64,000 nucleotides of DNA from Clostridia bacterium (GTDB taxonomy: Bacteria > Bacillota > Clostridia > Christensenellales > CAG-138). Below are positions 1,451-9,509 of the stretch, in pieces (position 1 is the stretch's first letter; every line of letters starts with the position of its first letter). Where the stretch lies: the NCBI GenBank assembly GCA_017545535.1, contig JAFWMS010000028.1, positions 62,001-126,000 of the forward strand, given 5' to 3'. The notes under the pieces are model-generated. The model made no database searches and had not been told where the DNA came from. It saw only the letters and a program-made list of their open reading frames with translations. The translations under genes and the position numbers were made by a program.

Positions 1451-1493
1451 GTTCGAACGATACAAGCTGGGCCCTGCAGATCGAAAGAAAAAA

Positions 1494-2975
1494 TTATTTT
1501 TCCCGCTCCAGGGGCTTGATCTTGTTCCGATACAGCCGGAGCATCAGAACCCCGGCCAGGATCAGGTGGGAGAACTCCGCGATGGGGAAGGCCCACCAGA
1601 CCGCTTCGATCCGATGGGTGAGGGTGGCCATGAGGTAGGCCACGGGGAGCAGGATCACCAGCTGCCTCGCAAGGGACGTGATCATCCCGTAGATGCCCGT
1701 GTCCGTGGCCCCGTAGACCGTGCCCATGGAGATGCCCACGGCCGCGCAGACGAAGCCCCAGGCGATGATGTGGATGGTGGTGACGGTGACGCCGTAGGTG
1801 AAGTCGGAAACGGCGAACAGCTCCATGAGGGTGGGCGCCCCCAGCTCGAAGAGGGCCGTGCCCGCCACCATGAACACCGCGCAGAACAACGTCAGCATCC
1901 CGTAGGCCCGCATGAACCGCTTCTTGTTCCGGGCGCCGTAGTTGTAGCCCAGGATGCTCATGGCCGCGTTGTTGAGGCCGAACACCGGCATGAAGATCAC
2001 GGACTGGAGGCGGAAATAGGTGCCGAAGGCGCTCTTATAGGCGTCCACATAGTTCACGTTGGGGTCAAGATGCTCCATATGGTACTCGCCCAGGCCCTTC
2101 AAAATCCCGTTCATGCCCAGATACATGACCGTGCCCACGGCCTGCATGAGGATGGAGGGCACGCCCACGCTGTAGATGTCCTTCACGGTCTGCTTCCGGA
2201 GCCTGAAGTGCTCTTTCTTCAGCTGCACCTCGCTCTTGGAGCGGGTGAGCATGACCAGGGCCAGGCCCATGGACGCGAACTGGCCCGCCACCGTGGCGAT
2301 GGCCGCGCCGGTGACGCCCATGGCGGGGATGGGTCCCCAGCCCAGGACGAAGACCCGGTCCAAAATGATGTTGGAAAAGGCACCGGTCAATTGCATCATC
2401 ATGGCCACCATGGTCCGCCCCTGGGCGGTCATGATCCGCTCGATGCCCACGGAGAGGAAGATGCCCACGGAGAGGGACAGGCAGATGGTCATATACTCGG
2501 TGCCGAAGAGGCGGACGATGGGGTCGTTGTCCTGCCAGGTCATGAACGCCCGGGAGAGGAACAGCCCGATGCAGCTGAAGAACAGGGAGCTGATCACCAT
2601 GAGCACCAGCCCGTTGCCCGCGGCCCGGTTGGCATCCTCGCCCCGCATTTCGCCGAGACGCCGGGAGATGAGGGAGTTCATGCCCACGGCGGTGCCCACC
2701 GCCACGGAGATCATGAGCATCTGCAGCGGGTTCACCGTGGAGAGGGCGTTCAGGGCCTTGTCGCCGATGGTGCTCTCCGTGCCGGGCACGTAAAGCTCGC
2801 CCAAAATGCCCGTGAGCTGCTCCGGGCTCAGGGTGGAGAGCCGGGACACGAACACGCTGTCCACGATGTTGTACAGCGCCTGCACCAGCATGCTGACGAT
2901 GATGGGCCAGCCCATGCTGAGGAGCAATTTCCCCTCCGGCTCGGTGGCCATTTTGTTCTGTCGAATGTTTTCCAT
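1494..2975 (-). CDS. MATE family efflux transporter
   Basis: This 493-residue integral membrane protein belongs to the multidrug and toxin extrusion family (Na+ or H+ coupled export of cationic drugs or metabolites). It has about 12 hydrophobic segments in two similar halves. The N-half carries SMGWPIIVSMLVQALYNIVDSVFVSR and SRRLGE, both typical of the NorM/DinF-type fold; the C-half has FGLNNAAMSILGYNYGA. An in-frame ATG exists 12 codons upstream (3011), but it lies inside the predicted -35 box. The ATG at 2975 sits exactly where transcription should begin, 7 bases after a TATAAT box, so I prefer it; a further ATG at 2951 also lacks a Shine-Dalgarno site. It converges on metQ and is divergent from the leader-peptide operon. 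The substrate is unknown. Confidence 0.9.
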   Translation of the reverse strand: MENIRQNKMATEPEGKLLLSMGWPIIVSMLVQALYNIVDSVFVSRLSTLSPEQLTGILGELYVPGTESTIGDKALNALSTVNPLQMLMISVAVGTAVGMNSLISRRLGEMRGEDANRAAGNGLVLMVISSLFFSCIGLFLSRAFMTWQDNDPIVRLFGTEYMTICLSLSVGIFLSVGIERIMTAQGRTMVAMMMQLTGAFSNIILDRVFVLGWGPIPAMGVTGAAIATVAGQFASMGLALVMLTRSKSEVQLKKEHFRLRKQTVKDIYSVGVPSILMQAVGTVMYLGMNGILKGLGEYHMEHLDPNVNYVDAYKSAFGTYFRLQSVIFMPVFGLNNAAMSILGYNYGARNKKRFMRAYGMLTLFCAVFMVAGTALFELGAPTLMELFAVSDFTYGVTVTTIHIIAWGFVCAAVGISMGTVYGATDTGIYGMITSLARQLVILLPVAYLMATLTHRIEAVWWAFPIAEFSHLILAGVLMLRLYRNKIKPLEREK

Positions 2976-3011: not shown

Positions 3012-3063
3012 GCCCTTGTTTTCGGGAAAAAGCGCGCAAGTTCTTTTCTATCCGTTTTTGAGG

Positions 3064-3092
3064 TTGCATGCCGCGGGACATGCATATATAAT
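3064..3092 (+). promoter_or_regulatory. Promoter with palindromic spacer, upstream of the leader peptide operon
   Basis: TTGCAT (3064-3069), a 17-base spacer and TATAAT (3087-3092) form the promoter. The spacer carries a dyad, TGCATG (3065-3070) and CATGCA (3079-3084), around a CCGCGG core, as expected for a repressor or activator site between the -35 and -10 boxes. The CD3324-type protein encoded downstream could be the ligand of this site, which is inference. Confidence 0.65.
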
Positions 3093-3135
3093 ACATATTG
3101 AATCATGCGTAATCTATAGAAAGGAGGCTAAATCA

Positions 3136-3162
3136 ATGATCGTGAGGTTCTTGACGGTCTGA
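3136..3162 (+). CDS. Eight-codon leader peptide MIVRFLTV
   Basis: ATG ATC GTG AGG TTC TTG ACG GTC TGA is preceded by AAAGGAGG at the ideal 7-base distance, a better ribosome site than most genes here have. The stop codon and last sense codon form the 5' arm of an 11-bp hairpin (3157-3167 with 3181-3191). A ribosome finishing or pausing on this ORF would therefore melt the hairpin and change access to the next gene at 3218. This is the layout of translational or transcriptional attenuators for antibiotic-resistance genes. The peptide does not match a stalling motif I know. Coding status is inferred from the ribosome site and geometry. Confidence 0.6.
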   Translation: MIVRFLTV

Positions 3163-3214
3163 GCTTAAATCCGTGAATCCTAAGCTCAGACGGTTCCTGA
3201 TATGTAGGAGGACC
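3153..3214 (+). promoter_or_regulatory. Attenuator-like RNA hairpins before the CD3324-type regulator
   Basis: Hairpin 1 pairs GTCTGAGCTTA (3157-3167) with TAAGCTCAGAC (3181-3191) around a 13-base loop and can extend by a few pairs to 3153/3195. Hairpin 2 pairs GGT-TCCT (3192-3198) with AGGA-ACC (3206-3214, two bases bulged) and covers the AGGAGG ribosome site of the next gene. The extended form of hairpin 1 and hairpin 2 share bases 3192-3195, so they can compete. There is no T-run, so control of translation is more likely than of termination. Confidence 0.55.
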
Positions 3215-3217
3215 AGT

Positions 3218-3517
3218 ATGAGCTATATCAAGGCAGATAAGGTGCTGCCCAAGGAGTTAATCGAAGCTATCCAGCACTATATAGACGGCAAATCCATCTA
3301 TATCCCAAGTAAACAGAAGCAGGCATGGGGGAACGGCACCTCCGCCAAGGCGTACTTTCGGGAACGAAACGAAAGGATATGCGACGCCTACCAAAGCGGA
3401 GCAAGCCGAAGGGAGCTGTCCCTCCGCTTTGCGTTGTCTGAAAAGAGCATCCAGCGCATCCTGCGGGAACAGAACAAACGACACAACGATTTCAACAATG
3501 GGGAGGAAACACCATGA
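3218..3517 (+). CDS. CD3324 family / Mor-like DNA-binding regulator
   Basis: This 99-residue protein resembles the small CD3324-family proteins of Clostridia, which carry a Mor-activator-like helix-turn-helix. Recognisable parts are YIKADKVLPKELIEAIQHYIDG at the N-terminus, the short YIPSK strand near residue 29, and a C-terminal HTH (YQSGASRRELSLRFALSEKSIQRILREQ, about residues 58-86). The start at 3218 is chosen because AGGAGG lies 7 bases before it; an ATG at 3173 lies inside the leader hairpin and has no ribosome site. The stop codon overlaps the next start (ATGA), so it is translationally coupled to the acetyltransferase fusion. It probably regulates this operon, perhaps through the dyad at 3065-3084. 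Confidence 0.8.
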   Translation: MSYIKADKVLPKELIEAIQHYIDGKSIYIPSKQKQAWGNGTSAKAYFRERNERICDAYQSGASRRELSLRFALSEKSIQRILREQNKRHNDFNNGEETP

Positions 3518-5007
3518 ACATACAATTAAGACCTGTGGACGACAGCAACCGGGAGGCGGTCTTGGCCCTGTCTGTCCGGGAGGACCAGCCCTTCGTGGCG
3601 CCCAACGACGTATCCCTGCGGCAGGCGGCGGAAACGAATGAAAAATACCACGGCGTGGCCCGTCCCTTCGGCATCTATGCGGACGAGAAGCTGGTGGGCT
3701 TCTGCATGTTTGTATTTGCGCCGCAGGCGGAGGACGAGGACGATCGCTACTGGCTTTGGCGCTTCATGATCGACCAAAGCGAGCAGGGCAAGGGCTACGG
3801 CCAGGCGGCCCTCGCCGAGATCATCCGCTATTTCAAAAAGAACGGCGCGGACAGGCTCTTCCTCTCCACCGAGCCGGAGAACGAGCGGGGTCTACATATC
3901 TATCACAAGGCCGGCTTTCGGGAGACCGGCATCATCGACGGCGACGAAGCCGTCCTCATGCGGATGCTGAAGGGGCCCAACCGGATCGTCAAGAATTTCT
4001 ATGGCGTGGACGTGGATAAGGCCATGCGGATCAGAGGCAGGAAGGGCTACGGCGTCAGCATCGCCGTTTCGGACAGCGACGGCGATTTGAGCACCTACTG
4101 CGCCGGCAGCGGCCGGTACGGCCAGGATTTCCCGGTGAACCCGGACATGCTCTTCCAGGCGGGCTCCGTCTCTAAGCCCATGTTCGCCCTGACTCTCCTC
4201 AGGTACGCGGACAAGGGGAAGATCGATCTCGACGCGGACATCTCCGGCGTGGTGCCGGAATTCGTGAAGAAGGGCCCGGTGACCTTCGCCGCCCTGCTCT
4301 CTCACACGGCGGGGTATAACGTCCACGGCTTTCCGGGCTATCCGGCCGCCCACGAGCCCCTGTCCCTGGAGGACGTGCTCTCGGGCAAGGGCAACACGCC
4401 CCGGCTCCGGCGCATCCGGCCCTACGGCAAGCAGCACATGTACTCCGGCGGCGGCATCACTCTCGCTGAGCTCGCTTTCACCCGCATCACGGGCACCACC
4501 CTACGGGACGCCTTCCAAAAGGAGGTGGCGGAGCCCCTGGGCCTTCAGCGCACCGGCTTCTTCCAGCCCCTGGACGAGGAACTGGTCGGCAACGCGGCCT
4601 TCGGCTGGCGGCTTGGTGAGAAGGAGGATGCGGCCCACGGCTATCACTACTATCCCGAGCACGCGGCGGCGGGCCTTTGGACCACGCCCACGGAGCTGGT
4701 CAAGGTCGGTATCGCCCTGTCGCGGAGCTATCGCCGGGGTGGCTTCCTGAAAAAGAAGACCGCCCGGCGCATGATGACGCCGATCATGGACGACTACGGG
4801 CTTTGCCTGGACGTCTGGGAGTCGGAAGCCCGAGAGGACAGCGTGGCCGGTCACACCGGAGAAAACTGGGGTTTTTTGACCAGCTGGGTCTTCTCCCGCA
4901 AGAAGGATATCTGCGTGGCCGTGATGTACAACAACGTGACGGCAGCCGCCGATGTGGCCATGGAAAACATCGCCTGTGAGATCTACAAAAACGCAAAGGA
5001 AGAATAG
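3514..5007 (+). CDS. GNAT acetyltransferase fused to a class C beta-lactamase-like serine hydrolase
   Basis: This is a two-domain protein of 497 residues without signal peptide, so it is predicted cytoplasmic. Residues 1-150 form a GNAT N-acetyltransferase of the BltD/SpeG-like kind; the acetyl-CoA loop reads QGKGYGQAAL near residue 91, after WRFMIDQ. Residues 165-490 form a serine hydrolase of the class C beta-lactamase/transpeptidase fold: Ser218-x-x-Lys221 (SVSK), Tyr310 in YSGG (the usual Asn is Gly) and His447-Thr-Gly. Such hydrolases include esterases and peptidases as well as beta-lactamases, so the substrate cannot be read from sequence. The start overlaps the upstream stop by 4 bases. 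Acetylation plus hydrolysis in one chain suggests inactivation of one small molecule, which is inference. Confidence 0.88.
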   Translation: MNIQLRPVDDSNREAVLALSVREDQPFVAPNDVSLRQAAETNEKYHGVARPFGIYADEKLVGFCMFVFAPQAEDEDDRYWLWRFMIDQSEQGKGYGQAALAEIIRYFKKNGADRLFLSTEPENERGLHIYHKAGFRETGIIDGDEAVLMRMLKGPNRIVKNFYGVDVDKAMRIRGRKGYGVSIAVSDSDGDLSTYCAGSGRYGQDFPVNPDMLFQAGSVSKPMFALTLLRYADKGKIDLDADISGVVPEFVKKGPVTFAALLSHTAGYNVHGFPGYPAAHEPLSLEDVLSGKGNTPRLRRIRPYGKQHMYSGGGITLAELAFTRITGTTLRDAFQKEVAEPLGLQRTGFFQPLDEELVGNAAFGWRLGEKEDAAHGYHYYPEHAAAGLWTTPTELVKVGIALSRSYRRGGFLKKKTARRMMTPIMDDYGLCLDVWESEAREDSVAGHTGENWGFLTSWVFSRKKDICVAVMYNNVTAAADVAMENIACEIYKNAKEE

Positions 5008-5014
5008 GGAAAGC

Positions 5015-7171
5015 ATGATCTACGAGCTGAAGGACAGAGCGAAGGCTGCGCCCCTGTTCGCGGGCATGGAGGACTCCATGATCGCCTCCTGCCTGCAGGG
5101 GATGATGGACAGCAAGATATACGTAACCGATCCCGAGCATCCCAAGTCCGCCTTGGCCCACCTCGCCGATTTCGCCTTCCTGGCCGGGGCGCCGGACCGG
5201 GCGCTGGTAGCGGAGGGCAAGCCCCAGGGCTTCGTGGTCATGGTGCCCCCCGACGAAGCCTGGGCGCAGCTCATCGAGGACTGCTTCCCGGGGGTCGAGC
5301 GGTGGACCCGCTACGCCATCAAAAAGGACACGACCTTCGACCGGGAAAACCTGGAACGGCTGGCGGCGTCCCTGCCCGCCGGGTACGAGATGCGCCGGAT
5401 CGACGGGGACCTGTACGACAAATGCCTGGCAGAGCCCCTGTTCACGGACGGGGTGTGCCACTTCGGCTCCAAGGAAACGTATCTTGAACAGGGCCGGGGC
5501 TTCGCCGTGGTGAAGGACGGGGCGCCGGTGTCCATGGCCTCCTCCTACACAGTGTACCGGGAGGGCATCGAGATCGAGATCGACACCCTGGAATCGGAGC
5601 GAAGGAAGGGCCTCGCCACGGCGGTGGGCGCCCGGCTGATCCTATCCTGTCTCGACGACAATCTCTACCCCAGCTGGGATGCGGCCAACATGGATTCGGT
5701 CCGCCTGGCCGAAAAACTGGGGTACGCGTTCAGCCACGAGTACTATTGCTATGGCATTGAGGAGACGAATTCCACAATACATCAGGAGGATACAATGGAT
5801 AAGAAAACTTTGATGGAAAACCTGGCGCAAGCGCTGCAGGAAAAGGATTGCTTCAACGGGGCCTGGCTCTACGCCGAGAAGGGTGAGATCGTATCGAAGG
5901 GCGCTATAGGCTTCCGGGACCCGGGGGACACGCTGCCCATCACGGAGGACACCATCTTTCAGCTGGCCTCCGTCAGCAAGACCTTCACAGGGGCGGCAAC
6001 TTTGCTGGTGGTGCGGCAGGGCAAGCTGAGCCTGGAGGACAGGATCACGAAGTATTTCCCGGAGCTCACGGCCTACGAGGGCGTGACGGTCCGGCATCTT
6101 TTGAACCACACCAGCGGCATCCCCGATTACTTTGACGACGCGGACTGGTTCATCGACCTCTGGAAGAAGGAGCAGCGGGTGCCGGGCAACGACGAGATCC
6201 TGCGCTTCCTCCAAGAAACCAAGGCGAAGCCCTATTTCGCCCCGGGGGAGGGATTGCGATACTCCAACACCGGCTACAACCTGCTGGCCCTGCTGGTGGA
6301 GCGGCTCTCCGGCGTCCCCTATGAAGAATTCCTGCAAAGGAACATCTTCGAGCCCGCCGGCATGACCGCCACCCGCTGCTGCCATATCCGCCGGGACGGC
6401 GTCCCCTTTGAGAACTACGCCCAGGCCACGGTGTTCGAGAACGGCAGATGGGTGGCCGACGTGGACTCCGAGGAGGACGGCGACGTGGTGGCCTTCGACG
6501 GGCTCAATGGCGACGACTACGTGTTCACCAATATCTTCGACATGCTCAAATGGGACCGGGCCCTCCGGGAGGGCAAGGTGCTGACGCTGGAGGAGCAGCA
6601 GCTCGCGTACACCCCCGGCAAGCTGAACAACGGCGAGGACGCCGTGTACGACGCGGAGGACGGCCTGGGCTACGGTTTGGGCTGGGCCGTGGGCCGGGAG
6701 GAGGAGCTGGGGCTGGTGGTCAGCCACAGCGGCGGCATGCCGGGCGTCAGTACCTGGTTCGAGCGCTTCATCGACGCGGACAGGGTCCTGGTGATCCTCA
6801 GCAACCGGGACTACCGGGACGTGAGAGCGTATTTGGGCTACTGGAACGGCATGGAGGCCATCGTCCGGGACAAGGAGCCGGAGCCCATCGTCTCCATCGA
6901 AGACATCGCCGTCAAGGACCCCGACAAATCGAAGTGGGAAAGCTATTGCGGCAAGTACGAGCATCCCGAGGACGCCGATTTCATCGTGGACGAAGTGTTC
7001 CTGAAAGACGGCGAACTTCATGTCAATGCCATCGACGACGATGGGGACGATATGACCTTCCGCCTCTATCCCCTCGGGGAGAACGAGTTCGGCCGCAAGG
7101 GCGGCATGCTGAAGCTGACATTCGGCGAAAACTGCCTGACCATCGATGACAAAACCTGCAAAAAGCTGTAA
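5015..7171 (+). CDS. GNAT (PF12746-like) acetyltransferase fused to a beta-lactamase-fold serine hydrolase
   Basis: This is a 718-residue protein with no signal peptide. Residues 1-250 resemble the GNAT_acetyltr_2 group, ending in WDAANMDSVRLAEKLGY, a typical GNAT beta-strand/helix close. Residues 261-600 are a class C beta-lactamase-fold hydrolase with Ser319-x-x-Lys322 (SVSK), Tyr416-Ser-Asn418 and His571-Ser-Gly573, so all three active-site motifs are intact. Residues 630-718 look like the DUF3471-type tail found on such hydrolases. The acetyltransferase is of a different subfamily from that in the preceding gene, so this is not a simple tandem duplication. An in-frame AGGAGG and ATG sit at the domain junction (5784-5797). 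The start is only 7 bp after the previous stop. Confidence 0.88.
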   Translation: MIYELKDRAKAAPLFAGMEDSMIASCLQGMMDSKIYVTDPEHPKSALAHLADFAFLAGAPDRALVAEGKPQGFVVMVPPDEAWAQLIEDCFPGVERWTRYAIKKDTTFDRENLERLAASLPAGYEMRRIDGDLYDKCLAEPLFTDGVCHFGSKETYLEQGRGFAVVKDGAPVSMASSYTVYREGIEIEIDTLESERRKGLATAVGARLILSCLDDNLYPSWDAANMDSVRLAEKLGYAFSHEYYCYGIEETNSTIHQEDTMDKKTLMENLAQALQEKDCFNGAWLYAEKGEIVSKGAIGFRDPGDTLPITEDTIFQLASVSKTFTGAATLLVVRQGKLSLEDRITKYFPELTAYEGVTVRHLLNHTSGIPDYFDDADWFIDLWKKEQRVPGNDEILRFLQETKAKPYFAPGEGLRYSNTGYNLLALLVERLSGVPYEEFLQRNIFEPAGMTATRCCHIRRDGVPFENYAQATVFENGRWVADVDSEEDGDVVAFDGLNGDDYVFTNIFDMLKWDRALREGKVLTLEEQQLAYTPGKLNNGEDAVYDAEDGLGYGLGWAVGREEELGLVVSHSGGMPGVSTWFERFIDADRVLVILSNRDYRDVRAYLGYWNGMEAIVRDKEPEPIVSIEDIAVKDPDKSKWESYCGKYEHPEDADFIVDEVFLKDGELHVNAIDDDGDDMTFRLYPLGENEFGRKGGMLKLTFGENCLTIDDKTCKKL
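5784..5797 (+). promoter_or_regulatory. Internal ribosome site and in-frame ATG at the fusion junction
   Basis: AGGAGG (5784-5789) lies 5 bases before ATG (5795-5797), which is codon 261 of the fusion and begins MDKKTLMENLAQAL, a natural N-terminus for the hydrolase domain. The site could yield the hydrolase alone as a second product, or be a relic of two separate genes that lost the stop codon between them. Confidence 0.6.
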
Positions 7172-7205
7172 GAGCAATAGAAACCGGAATGGAGAGATCA
7201 ACCAT

Positions 7206-7685
7206 ATGATACATCTTGAAAAGCTTACCTATGAGAACTTTAACGACGTCTTTGAGCTTAGAGTAAAAAAGGCGCAGTACCCCTTTGTGGCGGACAACTG
7301 TTACAGCGTTGCCGAAGCGTACGTGACCATGATCAACGGCGGGCATGTATTTCCTTTCGCCATCTACAACGACAAACGGCTTGTCGGCTTCATCCAGCTC
7401 GCGTACGGCGAGAACGCGGATCAGGACGAGGTAAGCGTCGCAAAGGACAATTACGAGATCTGGCGCTTCATGATCGACAAACGATATCAGGGCCGCGGCT
7501 ACGGCAAAGCCGCACTGAAGCTGGCCCTCGATTTCATCCGAACATGGCCCTGTGGAAAAGCCGAATACTGCTGGATCTCCTACGAACCCGAGAATGAGAC
7601 AGCAAAAAAGCTATACGCCTCCTTCGGCTTCGAGGAAACGGGCGAAATGGACGGAGAAGAAGTCGTGGCGGTGATGAAACTGTGA
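7206..7685 (+). CDS. GNAT family N-acetyltransferase (BltD/SpeG-like)
   Basis: This is a 159-residue single-domain acetyltransferase. Motif A is clear: WRFMIDKRYQGRGYGKAAL, with the Q/RxxGxG/A acetyl-CoA loop at about residues 97-105. It is followed by EPENETAKKLYASFGFEETGE, the closing element of motif B. It is closely similar in pattern to the N-terminal domain of the first fusion protein (both have WRFMID and EPENE), so the two may share ancestry and substrate class. GGAGAG lies about 10 bases before the ATG. The gene follows the second fusion after 34 bp and ends the apparent operon. The substrate is unknown; polyamines or aminated drugs are typical for relatives. Confidence 0.88.
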   Translation: MIHLEKLTYENFNDVFELRVKKAQYPFVADNCYSVAEAYVTMINGGHVFPFAIYNDKRLVGFIQLAYGENADQDEVSVAKDNYEIWRFMIDKRYQGRGYGKAALKLALDFIRTWPCGKAEYCWISYEPENETAKKLYASFGFEETGEMDGEEVVAVMKL

Positions 7686-7760: not shown

Positions 7761-9509
7761 ATGAAATGTTTCCATAGAATCAAACCTTTTGCGGCGCTGC
7801 TGACGGGGCTGATGCTGCTGGTGACTCTGGTGGCGGTCCCCGTCACCACGAACGGATACACCATGGCCCCCAAGACCACGCCCGAGCCTGGCGAACAGGC
7901 GGAGGGAGCGGTCATAGAGGTGAAGGACGTGGACGAGCTCCTGGCCGCCATCGGACCGGACGCCAACATTGCGTTGGCTACCGGCGATTACGATCTTTCT
8001 GCCGCCGCCAGCTACGGCAAGGACACGGGGAACCCCTACTGCCGCTGGACGGAAACCTCGGAACAGGGCTATGAGCTGCAGATCGTCAATGTCGACGGCC
8101 TGACCATCCGGGGCACCGGCATGGACGAGACCGCCCTGCTTGCCCGGGATCGGTACGCCTGCGTGCTCTGCTTCGTGGGCTGCCGGGAGCTGACCGTCGC
8201 CCAGCTGACGGCGGGGCACAGCCCGGAACCGGGCTTCTGCGCGGGGGGCGTGCTGCGCCTCGACCATTGCGAACAGGTCACGGTGGAGGGCTGCGGTCTC
8301 TTCGGCTGCGGCACCGTGGGTGTCTGGGCCTCCAGCTGCAACGGGCTCACGGTCAGCGCCAGCCGGATCTACGAGTGCAGCGACAGCGCCGTGAACGCGG
8401 ACAGCTGCCTGAACATACAGGTGCTGGATTCGGAGATCGACCATATCGGCTGGAAGAGCGAGTACATAGCTTCCGGCTTGTTCCAGACCTACGGCGGGGA
8501 CGGGTTCACCGTTTCCGGCTGCCGCATCCACGACAGCATCGCCGATCTGCTGCTGCAGTGCGCCTATACCGGCCATGTGGGATTCGTGTCGAACCAGGTG
8601 GCGTATAACTCCCTGCAAAGCGCCTTCGCTCTCCGGGAGCATTCCGCCACGGTGGACGGCTGCGCCTTTCACGGGAACTATATAAACAGCTGGTACGCCT
8701 ATGACGAGGAAGGGTCCTGCCTGCCTGCCCTGGATCAGGCGGGGCAGGAGCTGACGGAGGAGGCCCTTTCGGCCATGGAGATCCGGCCCATCCAGCTGAC
8801 GGGAACGGAGGAGATCGTCCTTCAGGAACCCACCGAGGTGCCCCTGGGCGGGGAGATCGTCGTGACCACCGTGGACGAGTTTCTATCCGCCATCGGCCCG
8901 GATCGGACCATCGTCCTGAAGGGGAGCAACTTCTCTCTGGCGGACGCGGAGAACTACGGCAGTCTGGATGGCTGGTATTACCGTTGGGAGTATACCTATG
9001 ACGGGCCCCAGCTGGTGATCTACGGCGCGACGAATCTGACGATCCGTTCCGAGGCGGAGGATCCGGCGGCCACCACCCTCACGGCCACGCCCCGGTATGC
9101 CGACGTGATCTGCTTCCAGAGCTGCGAGAACCTGCGCCTCGAGAGGCTGACCCTGGGCCACAGCGAGGGACCCAGCGAATGCTCCGGCGCCGTGCTGAAC
9201 TTTGAAAACTGCAGCAGCGTCCTGTTGAACCGCTGCCGCCTCTACGGCTGCGGCACCATCGGCGTCAATGCCATGACCTGCCGGAACCTTCGGGTGGTGA
9301 GCTGCGAGATCTACGATTGCTCCATCAGCGGGGCGGTGCTGTACACCGTCTCCGACGCGGCTTTCCAGAACTGCGCCATCCACGACGTGCCCAGCCCCAT
9401 GCTGTGCTTCTATGACACCTACGGGGTGGTCTGGAACGGAACGACCCTTTCCGGACCCCACTACGACGTGACGGCCGACGGCGAAGCCATGCCGGTGGAG
9501 CTGGGATAA
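7761..9509 (+). CDS. Secreted right-handed parallel beta-helix protein with two homologous halves
   Basis: This 582-residue exported protein has a signal peptide over about residues 1-28 (basic MKCFHRIK, hydrophobic core), then a short Pro/Thr stretch. Two halves of roughly 250 residues repeat the same plan: VDELLAAIGPD / VDEFLSAIGPD, a YCRW / YYRW segment, LTIRGTG / LTIRSEA, LTAGHS / LTLGHS, then pectate-lyase-like beta-helix coils (GCGTVGV / GCGTIGV, RIYECS / EIYDCS). The coils are unusually cysteine-rich for an exported protein. Relatives are polysaccharide lyases or surface adhesins, but no catalytic residues are evident. AGGAGA lies about 11 bases before the ATG. A strong terminator follows. 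The role is unknown; binding or cleaving a surface glycan is a guess. Confidence 0.75.
   Translation: MKCFHRIKPFAALLTGLMLLVTLVAVPVTTNGYTMAPKTTPEPGEQAEGAVIEVKDVDELLAAIGPDANIALATGDYDLSAAASYGKDTGNPYCRWTETSEQGYELQIVNVDGLTIRGTGMDETALLARDRYACVLCFVGCRELTVAQLTAGHSPEPGFCAGGVLRLDHCEQVTVEGCGLFGCGTVGVWASSCNGLTVSASRIYECSDSAVNADSCLNIQVLDSEIDHIGWKSEYIASGLFQTYGGDGFTVSGCRIHDSIADLLLQCAYTGHVGFVSNQVAYNSLQSAFALREHSATVDGCAFHGNYINSWYAYDEEGSCLPALDQAGQELTEEALSAMEIRPIQLTGTEEIVLQEPTEVPLGGEIVVTTVDEFLSAIGPDRTIVLKGSNFSLADAENYGSLDGWYYRWEYTYDGPQLVIYGATNLTIRSEAEDPAATTLTATPRYADVICFQSCENLRLERLTLGHSEGPSECSGAVLNFENCSSVLLNRCRLYGCGTIGVNAMTCRNLRVVSCEIYDCSISGAVLYTVSDAAFQNCAIHDVPSPMLCFYDTYGVVWNGTTLSGPHYDVTADGEAMPVELG

Follow-up and report, generated by a model that had tools for sequence, protein, structure and literature searches.

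The window analysed here is a 64,000-nucleotide (nt) stretch of DNA from a Clostridia bacterium, and this study concerns a gene cassette at its positions 3064-7685, in which a short leader open reading frame (ORF) precedes a CD3324-family regulatory gene and genes for acetyltransferases and serine hydrolases. All coordinates are on the + strand. An initial annotation had read the cassette as an inducible system that acetylates and hydrolyses small molecules. The layout it described was confirmed throughout by sequence and domain searches: one strand, a promoter, an 8-codon leader, a hairpin, a CD3324/Mor gene, an ATGA overlap and gaps of 7 and 34 nt. Its interpretation is partly supported.

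Along the + strand, the order is promoter, leader ORF, hairpin, CD3324, G1BL, G2BL and GN3; from CD3324 on, the intergenic distances are -4, 7 and 34 nt. The promoter (3060..3092) consists of GAGGTTG at 3060-3066, a 20 nt spacer and TATAAT at 3087-3092. The -35 element of the window is poor against consensus; the pattern GAGGTTG-N20-TANNNT is nevertheless fixed in 12 of the 12 loci with this type of leader (leader A) where a promoter was located, and occurs in 0.3% of random stretches. No second consensus promoter was found on the + strand of the cassette. The CD3324 gene (3218..3517) encodes a 99-residue protein with a Mor-like helix-turn-helix (HTH), which passes the curated cut-off of NF040785 (100.1 bits, cut-off 65) and also that of PF08765 (26 bits). 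It overlaps by ATGA with G1BL (3514..5007), whose 497-residue product fuses a GNAT acetyltransferase (residues 1-150, PF00583) to an S12 serine hydrolase (PF00144). G2BL (5015..7171; 718 residues) joins a PF12746 GNAT in frame to a PF00144 S12 hydrolase and a C-terminal domain. GN3 (7206..7685) is a free GNAT acetyltransferase of 159 residues (PF00583), 100% identical in the related locus L039. The three GNAT domains and two hydrolases with intact SxxK motifs that the annotation had proposed are thus all matched by PF00583, PF12746 and PF00144.

Predicted alternative pairings ahead of CD3324

The leader ORF (ATGATCGTGAGGTTCTTGACGGTCTGA, 3136..3162) encodes MIVRFLTV in 8 codons, is preceded by its own Shine-Dalgarno (SD) sequence (AAAGGAGG) and is retained in relatives. 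Its stop codon lies within the 5' arm of a hairpin, termed 2:3 (3157..3191), with the 5' arm GTCTGAGCTTA at 3157-3167 and the 3' arm TAAGCTCAGAC at 3181-3191; the hairpin is predicted at p=0.99 in naked RNA. A short hairpin (3195..3211) follows over the CD3324 SD, where TCCT at 3195-3198 pairs with AGGA of the SD AGGAGG (3206-3211). This SD is more closed than in most linker shuffles, the fraction of shuffles as closed being 0.10 for the window and 0.00-0.18 for relatives. Segment 4, ATGAGCT (3218..3224), comprises the CD3324 start codons and is complementary to segment 3 (AGCTCA).

Fifteen loci from several genera carry the leader and hairpin; CD3324 accompanies them in 14, and in the other, L015, a relic remains after deletion of most of CD3324. 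Eight have leader, hairpin and CD3324 at G1BL (the window, L003, L016, L024, L036, L038, L064 and L077), and six (L119, L120, L121, L124, L147, L152) carry other genes downstream. Judged by its positions, leader A is attached to CD3324 rather than to the enzymes, being present before CD3324 where the neighbours differ. Most relatives encode a leader peptide of the pattern MIVRFL[TA]V or M[TKR][RK][RK][YN]V.A[QR] with altered codons, and MRRKYGMAQEI and MLKYPLAQ fall outside it. The arms of hairpin 2:3 are near-invariant and its loop spans 13-19 nt among relatives. Where arms do change (L064, L119, L124), the changes are one-sided and pairing is retained through G-U.

We evaluated the leader RNA by imposing ribosome footprints as unpaired stretches and then computing by folding the accessibility of the CD3324 start codon. 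When the P-site occupies codons 1-3 of the window leader, hairpin 2:3 is predicted at p 0.97-1.00 and the CD3324 start can be opened for 2.3-2.6 kcal/mol. Once the ribosome has reached codon 4 (codons 4-8), segment 3 is predicted instead to pair with the ATGAGCT of the CD3324 start (3:4, p 0.99-1.00), and with the leader stop codon in the A site the cost of opening rises to 9.4 kcal/mol. The two pairings are mutually exclusive in the predictions for 13 of 13 leaders, in all of which 3:4 forms at p 0.83-1.00 with the ribosome at the leader stop; in most nine-codon leaders the CD3324 start is most open with the P-site near codons 3-6. The swing in opening cost is 7.1 kcal/mol for the window and 4.5-8.1 kcal/mol across seven leaders, and shuffles of the region between leader and SD matched it in 0 of 100 cases for each of the seven. 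Consistent with a constraint on segment 4, Ser2 and Tyr3 of CD3324 are encoded by AGC and TAT in 14 of 14 genes, and replacing AGC with other Ser2 codons lowers the mean swing to 0.4-2.7 kcal/mol. The leaders other than that of the window also carry a segment 1 (GCTCAG or GCTCGG) able to pair 1:2, and codons 2-4 read R/K-X-R/K in several of those with nine codons. Together these data support a predicted ermC-like switch, in which an early stall would leave 2:3 formed and the CD3324 start open, while a ribosome at the leader end would let 3:4 mask the start. The annotation's proposal that a leader peptide with alternative hairpins couples ribosome position to expression is in this respect upheld by the predictions.

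At this position, further subfamilies of CD3324 carry leader ORFs and hairpins of a different kind. We considered whether pairing 3:4 had changed in a compensatory manner across them (L122, L125 and L118 have 6-8 bp of their own), and make no such claim because a subfamily's own pairing beats just 30-79% of other starts in a swap control and further subfamilies do not fit. Leader A outside the order was likewise rejected: among 391 genomes of the class five have the pattern, and the four loci besides the window's own, with no adjacent CD3324, are put down to chance. The subfamily at L092, L114, L144, L111 and L112 has an upstream leader ..LHA.P......CME followed by a stop (clearest in L092, L114 and L144), with nested hairpins CTCCATGCA/TGCATGGAG and GCCAGC/GCTGGC, and in L113, L115, L116 and L119 the CD3324 domain is N-terminal in longer proteins of ~236-250 residues. 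A second conserved hairpin, CATAGCCGG..GACTGA..CAGTCCCGGCTATG, lies between CD3324 and G1BL, shortly 5' of the latter, in L016, L024, L036, L064 and L015 and is absent from the window. A literature search on CD3324 returned two unrelated hits, with no published function and no description of a leader and hairpin before such genes. Given the Mor-like HTH, CD3324 is probably a DNA-binding activator.

Exchange of leader elements upstream of G1BL

One scan of a genome collection gave 80 loci with G1BL relatives at 71-91% identity, nearly all on contigs of metagenome-assembled Clostridia from rumen or gut; every locus with leader A, B or C and every G1BL relative comes from metagenome assemblies. 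CD3324 lies directly 5' of G1BL in 8 of these ~80 loci, and as a relic in L015. Elsewhere the position is often taken by one of two further leader-ORF elements. Element B comprises a leader ORF, 6-16 codons long and present in 37 distinct versions, and after it a near-invariant terminator; nearly all copies place the leader stop 9 or 12-13 nt upstream of the first stem. Its sequence GTGGGAACCGC resembles a T-box motif; T-box control was rejected, as there was no RF00230 match at the gathering threshold and none up to E=10 on L006. Element C (upstream of G1BL in L005, L039, L065 and L056) has a leader of ~20 codons, MGNN...TxY..MTSVRA and a stop, also followed by a terminator, and the 3' end of this leader, GATGACCTC, is complementary to its own SD (GAGGTCATC/GATGACCTC).

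On a tree of 79 G1BL genes, module A is directly upstream in 7 rows, B in 31 and C in 4, and the module type changes 25 times. The seven rows of module A require seven changes, six of which are forced by strongly supported branches. Individual pairs of loci illustrate the exchange: from 18 nt 5' of the G1BL start onward, L016 (module A) and L008 (module B) are 96.6% identical, and the replaced control interval has matching sequence on either side in L003 (A) and L005 (C). Of the arguments for selection on ribosome-coupled control, this swapping of unrelated leader-ORF elements is the strongest.

A covariance model of element B was run on 248 genomes of the order and 103 of the family, and found the element in 7 and 16 of them, respectively, with most copies 5' of G1BL. 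Two B variants in different families instead precede an RsgA-type GTPase (TIGR00157, 168 and 182 bits, cut-off 100), with the B-like leaders MTVFYEVIEP and MLVREVVAG in loci L188 (~1460-2830, + strand) and L199 (~1470-2700, reverse strand). Both genomes encode a further RsgA, of housekeeping length, which is the sole RsgA in three comparison genomes; the copy behind B is accessory. In L188, two successive terminator-like hairpins with T runs lie at ~1590-1700 between leader and RsgA gene. In L195, L196 and L198 (~1450-2900), B with leaders MIQIAFA[EG] stands before a tandem two-domain GNAT of 292 residues or a different S12 hydrolase.

The acetyltransferase and hydrolase genes

Both domains of G1BL are evidently under selection as enzymes, since S218 and K221 (SxxK), Y310, H447/G449 and the GNAT residues Q91/G94/G96, covering catalytic and acetyl-CoA motifs, are 100% conserved in 79 aligned proteins. 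Across the cassette, GNAT motif A (Q/RxxGxG/A) reads QGKGYG, RRKGLA and QGRGYG in domains that pass their Pfam cut-offs, and the two hydrolases, each with intact SxxK, score 131.7 and 207.8 bits against PF00144 (cut-off 27). With their conserved catalytic motifs and no signal peptide, the products are supported as cytoplasmic enzymes. The hydrolases share fold family, SxxK and Tyr motif with the S12 members of PF00144 (R61 DD-peptidase, D-amino acid amidase, alkaline D-peptidase, ClbP, AmpC) and differ from them in lacking a signal peptide, in being fused to GNATs and in having HxG in place of KTG. Because this third motif (HTG or HSG) is not the KTG of β-lactamases, β-lactam hydrolysis is unlikely, and the scores against bla_class_C, 30 and 66.5 bits, fall well below its cut-off of 415. 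The sequences would rather suit amide or peptide hydrolysis than β-lactam resistance. Among solved structures, the best relatives of the hydrolases are R61-type DD-peptidase, D-amino acid amidase and alkaline D-peptidase, and those of the first GNAT are the spermine/spermidine acetyltransferases 2fl4 and 9dsb, at low identity. G1 and GN3 are similar in sequence to PaiA/spermidine acetyltransferase GNATs and far under the equivalog cut-off (36 bits against 250); the nearest NCBIfam model of GN3 is spermidine acetyltransferase PaiA, below its cut-off. The AlphaFold model of G1BL, with a mean predicted local distance difference test score of 66, was too weak for a fold search.

No Rfam family matched the cassette region, and no NCBIfam resistance model scored above cut-off in the cassette. 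A PADLOC scan for defence models returned a single weak match (19.8 bits) to the first GNAT region, which falls short of a known anti-phage system, and comparison with plasmids and phages gave only single-domain matches below 60% identity, so that mobile carriage of the cassette was rejected.

Two GNAT-hydrolase fusions had been annotated, and both frames are real, that of G2BL running to 739 codons. The second, however, is private to the window's genome and retains the SD and start of a separate gene inside it. Parts of G2BL occur in 41 of 103 genomes of the same family and are joined as one gene in the window's genome alone; elsewhere G2 and BL2 are separate genes on the same strand, G2 ending as a free protein in L002 and L004 and BL2 having its own start in L039. 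A candidate second fusion in genome G715 (an 807-codon frame) was rejected, as stop codons lie between G2 and BL2. Within G2BL the best match switches from L004 to L039 at a haplotype breakpoint (5755..5795): by blastn the L004 match is 89.7% up to 5754 and the L039 match 96.7% from 5792. The breakpoint holds an internal SD, AGGAGG (5784-5789), and the ATG at 5795, which is the native start of BL2 in relatives. Given the private fusion and the switch of match at its junction, G2BL is either a recent recombination chimera, possibly still yielding separate BL2, or an assembly chimera. That the fusion and its mosaic, though not the whole cassette, are artefacts of a metagenome-assembled genome is a minority possibility: this genome is spread over 43 contigs, and the fusion is absent from all others among the 41 carriers. 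The junction is in frame, however, both flanks are syntenic with relatives, and shuffled module order is common at such loci.

Gene order among relatives is shuffled, with a single strand retained. CD3324 followed by two GNAT-hydrolase fusions, the unit envisaged by the initial annotation, is thus not found as such: CD3324-G1BL is confined to the eight loci and the L015 relic, and the second fusion is unique. That annotation had staked its proposal on conservation of the order or of the leader in relatives; the order is not conserved, whereas the leader principle is kept while the element itself is exchanged. A C-terminal domain of ~100 residues is common to free G2, BL2 (residues ~345-460, window ~6830-7171) and one branch of G1BL (the long forms L040 and L059), which suggests domain shuffling among the array genes.

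A proposed translation-stress cassette and its alternatives

These data allow us to propose that the locus is an enzyme cassette induced by translation stress, a reading that commands about half of our confidence. The mRNA would begin with the 8-codon leader and segments that pair either 2:3 or 3:4. If the leader were translated to its end, the ribosome would cover segment 2, segment 3 would pair with the CD3324 start and CD3324 would be off; a stall in the first leader codons would let 2:3 form and leave the start open, so that CD3324 is made and translation continues into G1BL through the ATGA overlap. The GNAT and S12 domains would then acetylate and hydrolyse a small amide or amine compound in the cytoplasm, most likely one that hinders translation. 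Function of the switch in cells, stalling as its signal, the nature of inducer and substrate, and an activator role for CD3324 are inferred rather than read directly, as are the annotation's ideas of a single family of small molecules and of a translation inhibitor. That the small molecule is a translation inhibitor, suggested by the control elements and RsgA, stands at roughly an even chance.

Control of this type is already known. The erm leader peptides (ermC, ermB, ermD) act by translational attenuation (PMC5118997, PMC8298421), and R/K-X-R/K is a ribosome arrest motif for macrolides and ketolides (PMC8298421). As in erm, the cassette has a short leader ORF and alternative pairing through which a stall is predicted to free downstream initiation, and several relatives of the window leader share the arrest motif at codons 2-4. 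Unlike in erm, the downstream genes are a Mor-like regulator and acetyltransferase/hydrolase genes rather than an rRNA methylase, and segment 3 masks the start codon itself. The toiL upstream ORF of E. coli topAI-yjhQ senses many ribosome-targeting antibiotics, with stalls at different codons altering pairing near the downstream initiation region (PMC12121999). The pairing of the window leader with the SD region resembles that proposal (PMC12121999); in contrast, genes and sequence are unrelated, the operon under toiL control being a toxin-antitoxin operon that involves Rho termination. In Listeria, the accessory ribosomal GTPase HflXr lies behind a small-ORF attenuator with an RLR leader and confers lincomycin/erythromycin resistance (PMC6310831). 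Element B before an accessory copy of the housekeeping GTPase RsgA is like HflXr in logic, not in sequence; the GTPase is RsgA instead of HflX. The literature searched yielded no description of this enzyme set, of its link to CD3324, of a variant that masks the start codon or of an exchange of three modules.

Several points weigh against a translation-stress cassette. The evidence is entirely in silico, from sequence comparison and RNA folding prediction. The window-type leader lacks segment 1, its sequence pairing with the SD region instead, and it lacks the R/K-X-R/K macrolide-arrest motif. Hairpin 2:3 of the subfamily has no double-sided covariation, because its arms scarcely vary. Neither A, B nor C lies directly upstream in 36 of the 79 G1BL genes, many of which are preceded by an array gene. 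Equilibrium folding gave no clear thermodynamic antiterminator for B and C, the terminator forming at p=1.00 at nearly all ribosome positions. CD3324 and its leader also occur away from GNAT/S12 enzymes, and no known resistance gene lies behind leader A in the loci examined.

The main rival to the translation-inhibitor reading is polyamine or peptide metabolism: the leader switch would be real and sense metabolic state, such as polyamine, amino-acid or aminoacyl-tRNA supply, and the enzymes would acetylate polyamines and hydrolyse D-peptides or amides. We hold this improbable. It would account for the resemblance of the first GNAT to spermine/spermidine acetyltransferases and of the free GNAT, below cut-off, to PaiA, and for hydrolases with an HxG motif that look like D-peptide and D-amino acid enzymes. 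Against it, the leader peptides of B and C are diverse, which suits general ribosome trouble over one codon or ligand, the leaders have neither a run of codons for a single amino acid nor a T-box or riboswitch match, and element B also controls accessory RsgA.

Rather less credence goes to the view that the leader controls CD3324 only and that the acetyltransferase-hydrolase genes are passengers behind a portable module of promoter, leader and CD3324. The six loci with other neighbours behind CD3324 fit it, as does the repeated movement of the module into and out of the G1BL locus. Yet CD3324 stands before G1BL in eight loci though few genomes have any CD3324 (23 of 297), the two genes share the ATGA overlap, and B and C, which replace the module, are leader-ORF elements too, something that the passenger view would not lead one to expect. 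It is very improbable that CD3324 regulates its own gene through the inverted repeat TCTGAGCTTA/TAAGCTCAGA as a DNA operator, the RNA fold being incidental: the Mor-like HTH, the near-invariant arms and the restriction of the repeat to CD3324 genes are what an operator would show, but the half-site spacing of 13-19 nt is not in whole helix turns, the one-sided arm changes break the DNA dyad while keeping RNA pairing by G-U, so that an RNA hairpin is favoured over a rigid operator, and segment 3 also matches start codons with an invariant synonymous choice.

Extending the translation-stress reading, we tentatively propose, as something still short of likely, a new inducible response of gut and rumen Clostridia: interchangeable leader-ORF modules (at least three unrelated, one with a CD3324 activator) would stand before shuffled acetyltransferase/S12-hydrolase genes and accessory RsgA, and a class of ribosome-targeting compounds would be inactivated or tolerated by acetylation and amide hydrolysis. 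A small set of resistance genes is known to lie behind leader ORFs that sense the ribosome. One enzyme gene behind three unrelated, mutually replacing leader-ORF elements amounts to a natural experiment: it suggests conservation of the input, ribosome trouble, rather than of the element. If confirmed, the GNAT-S12 fusions, an uncharacterised family, would be identified as belonging to a response of animal gut bacteria to stress or drugs, the orphan CD3324 family would gain a function-linked context, and the leader sequence could be used for direct inducer screening.

Directly downstream of the cassette, positions 7761-9509 of the window encode a probable secreted right-handed beta-helix protein with two similar halves, and the same neighbour is present in L039 and L004.

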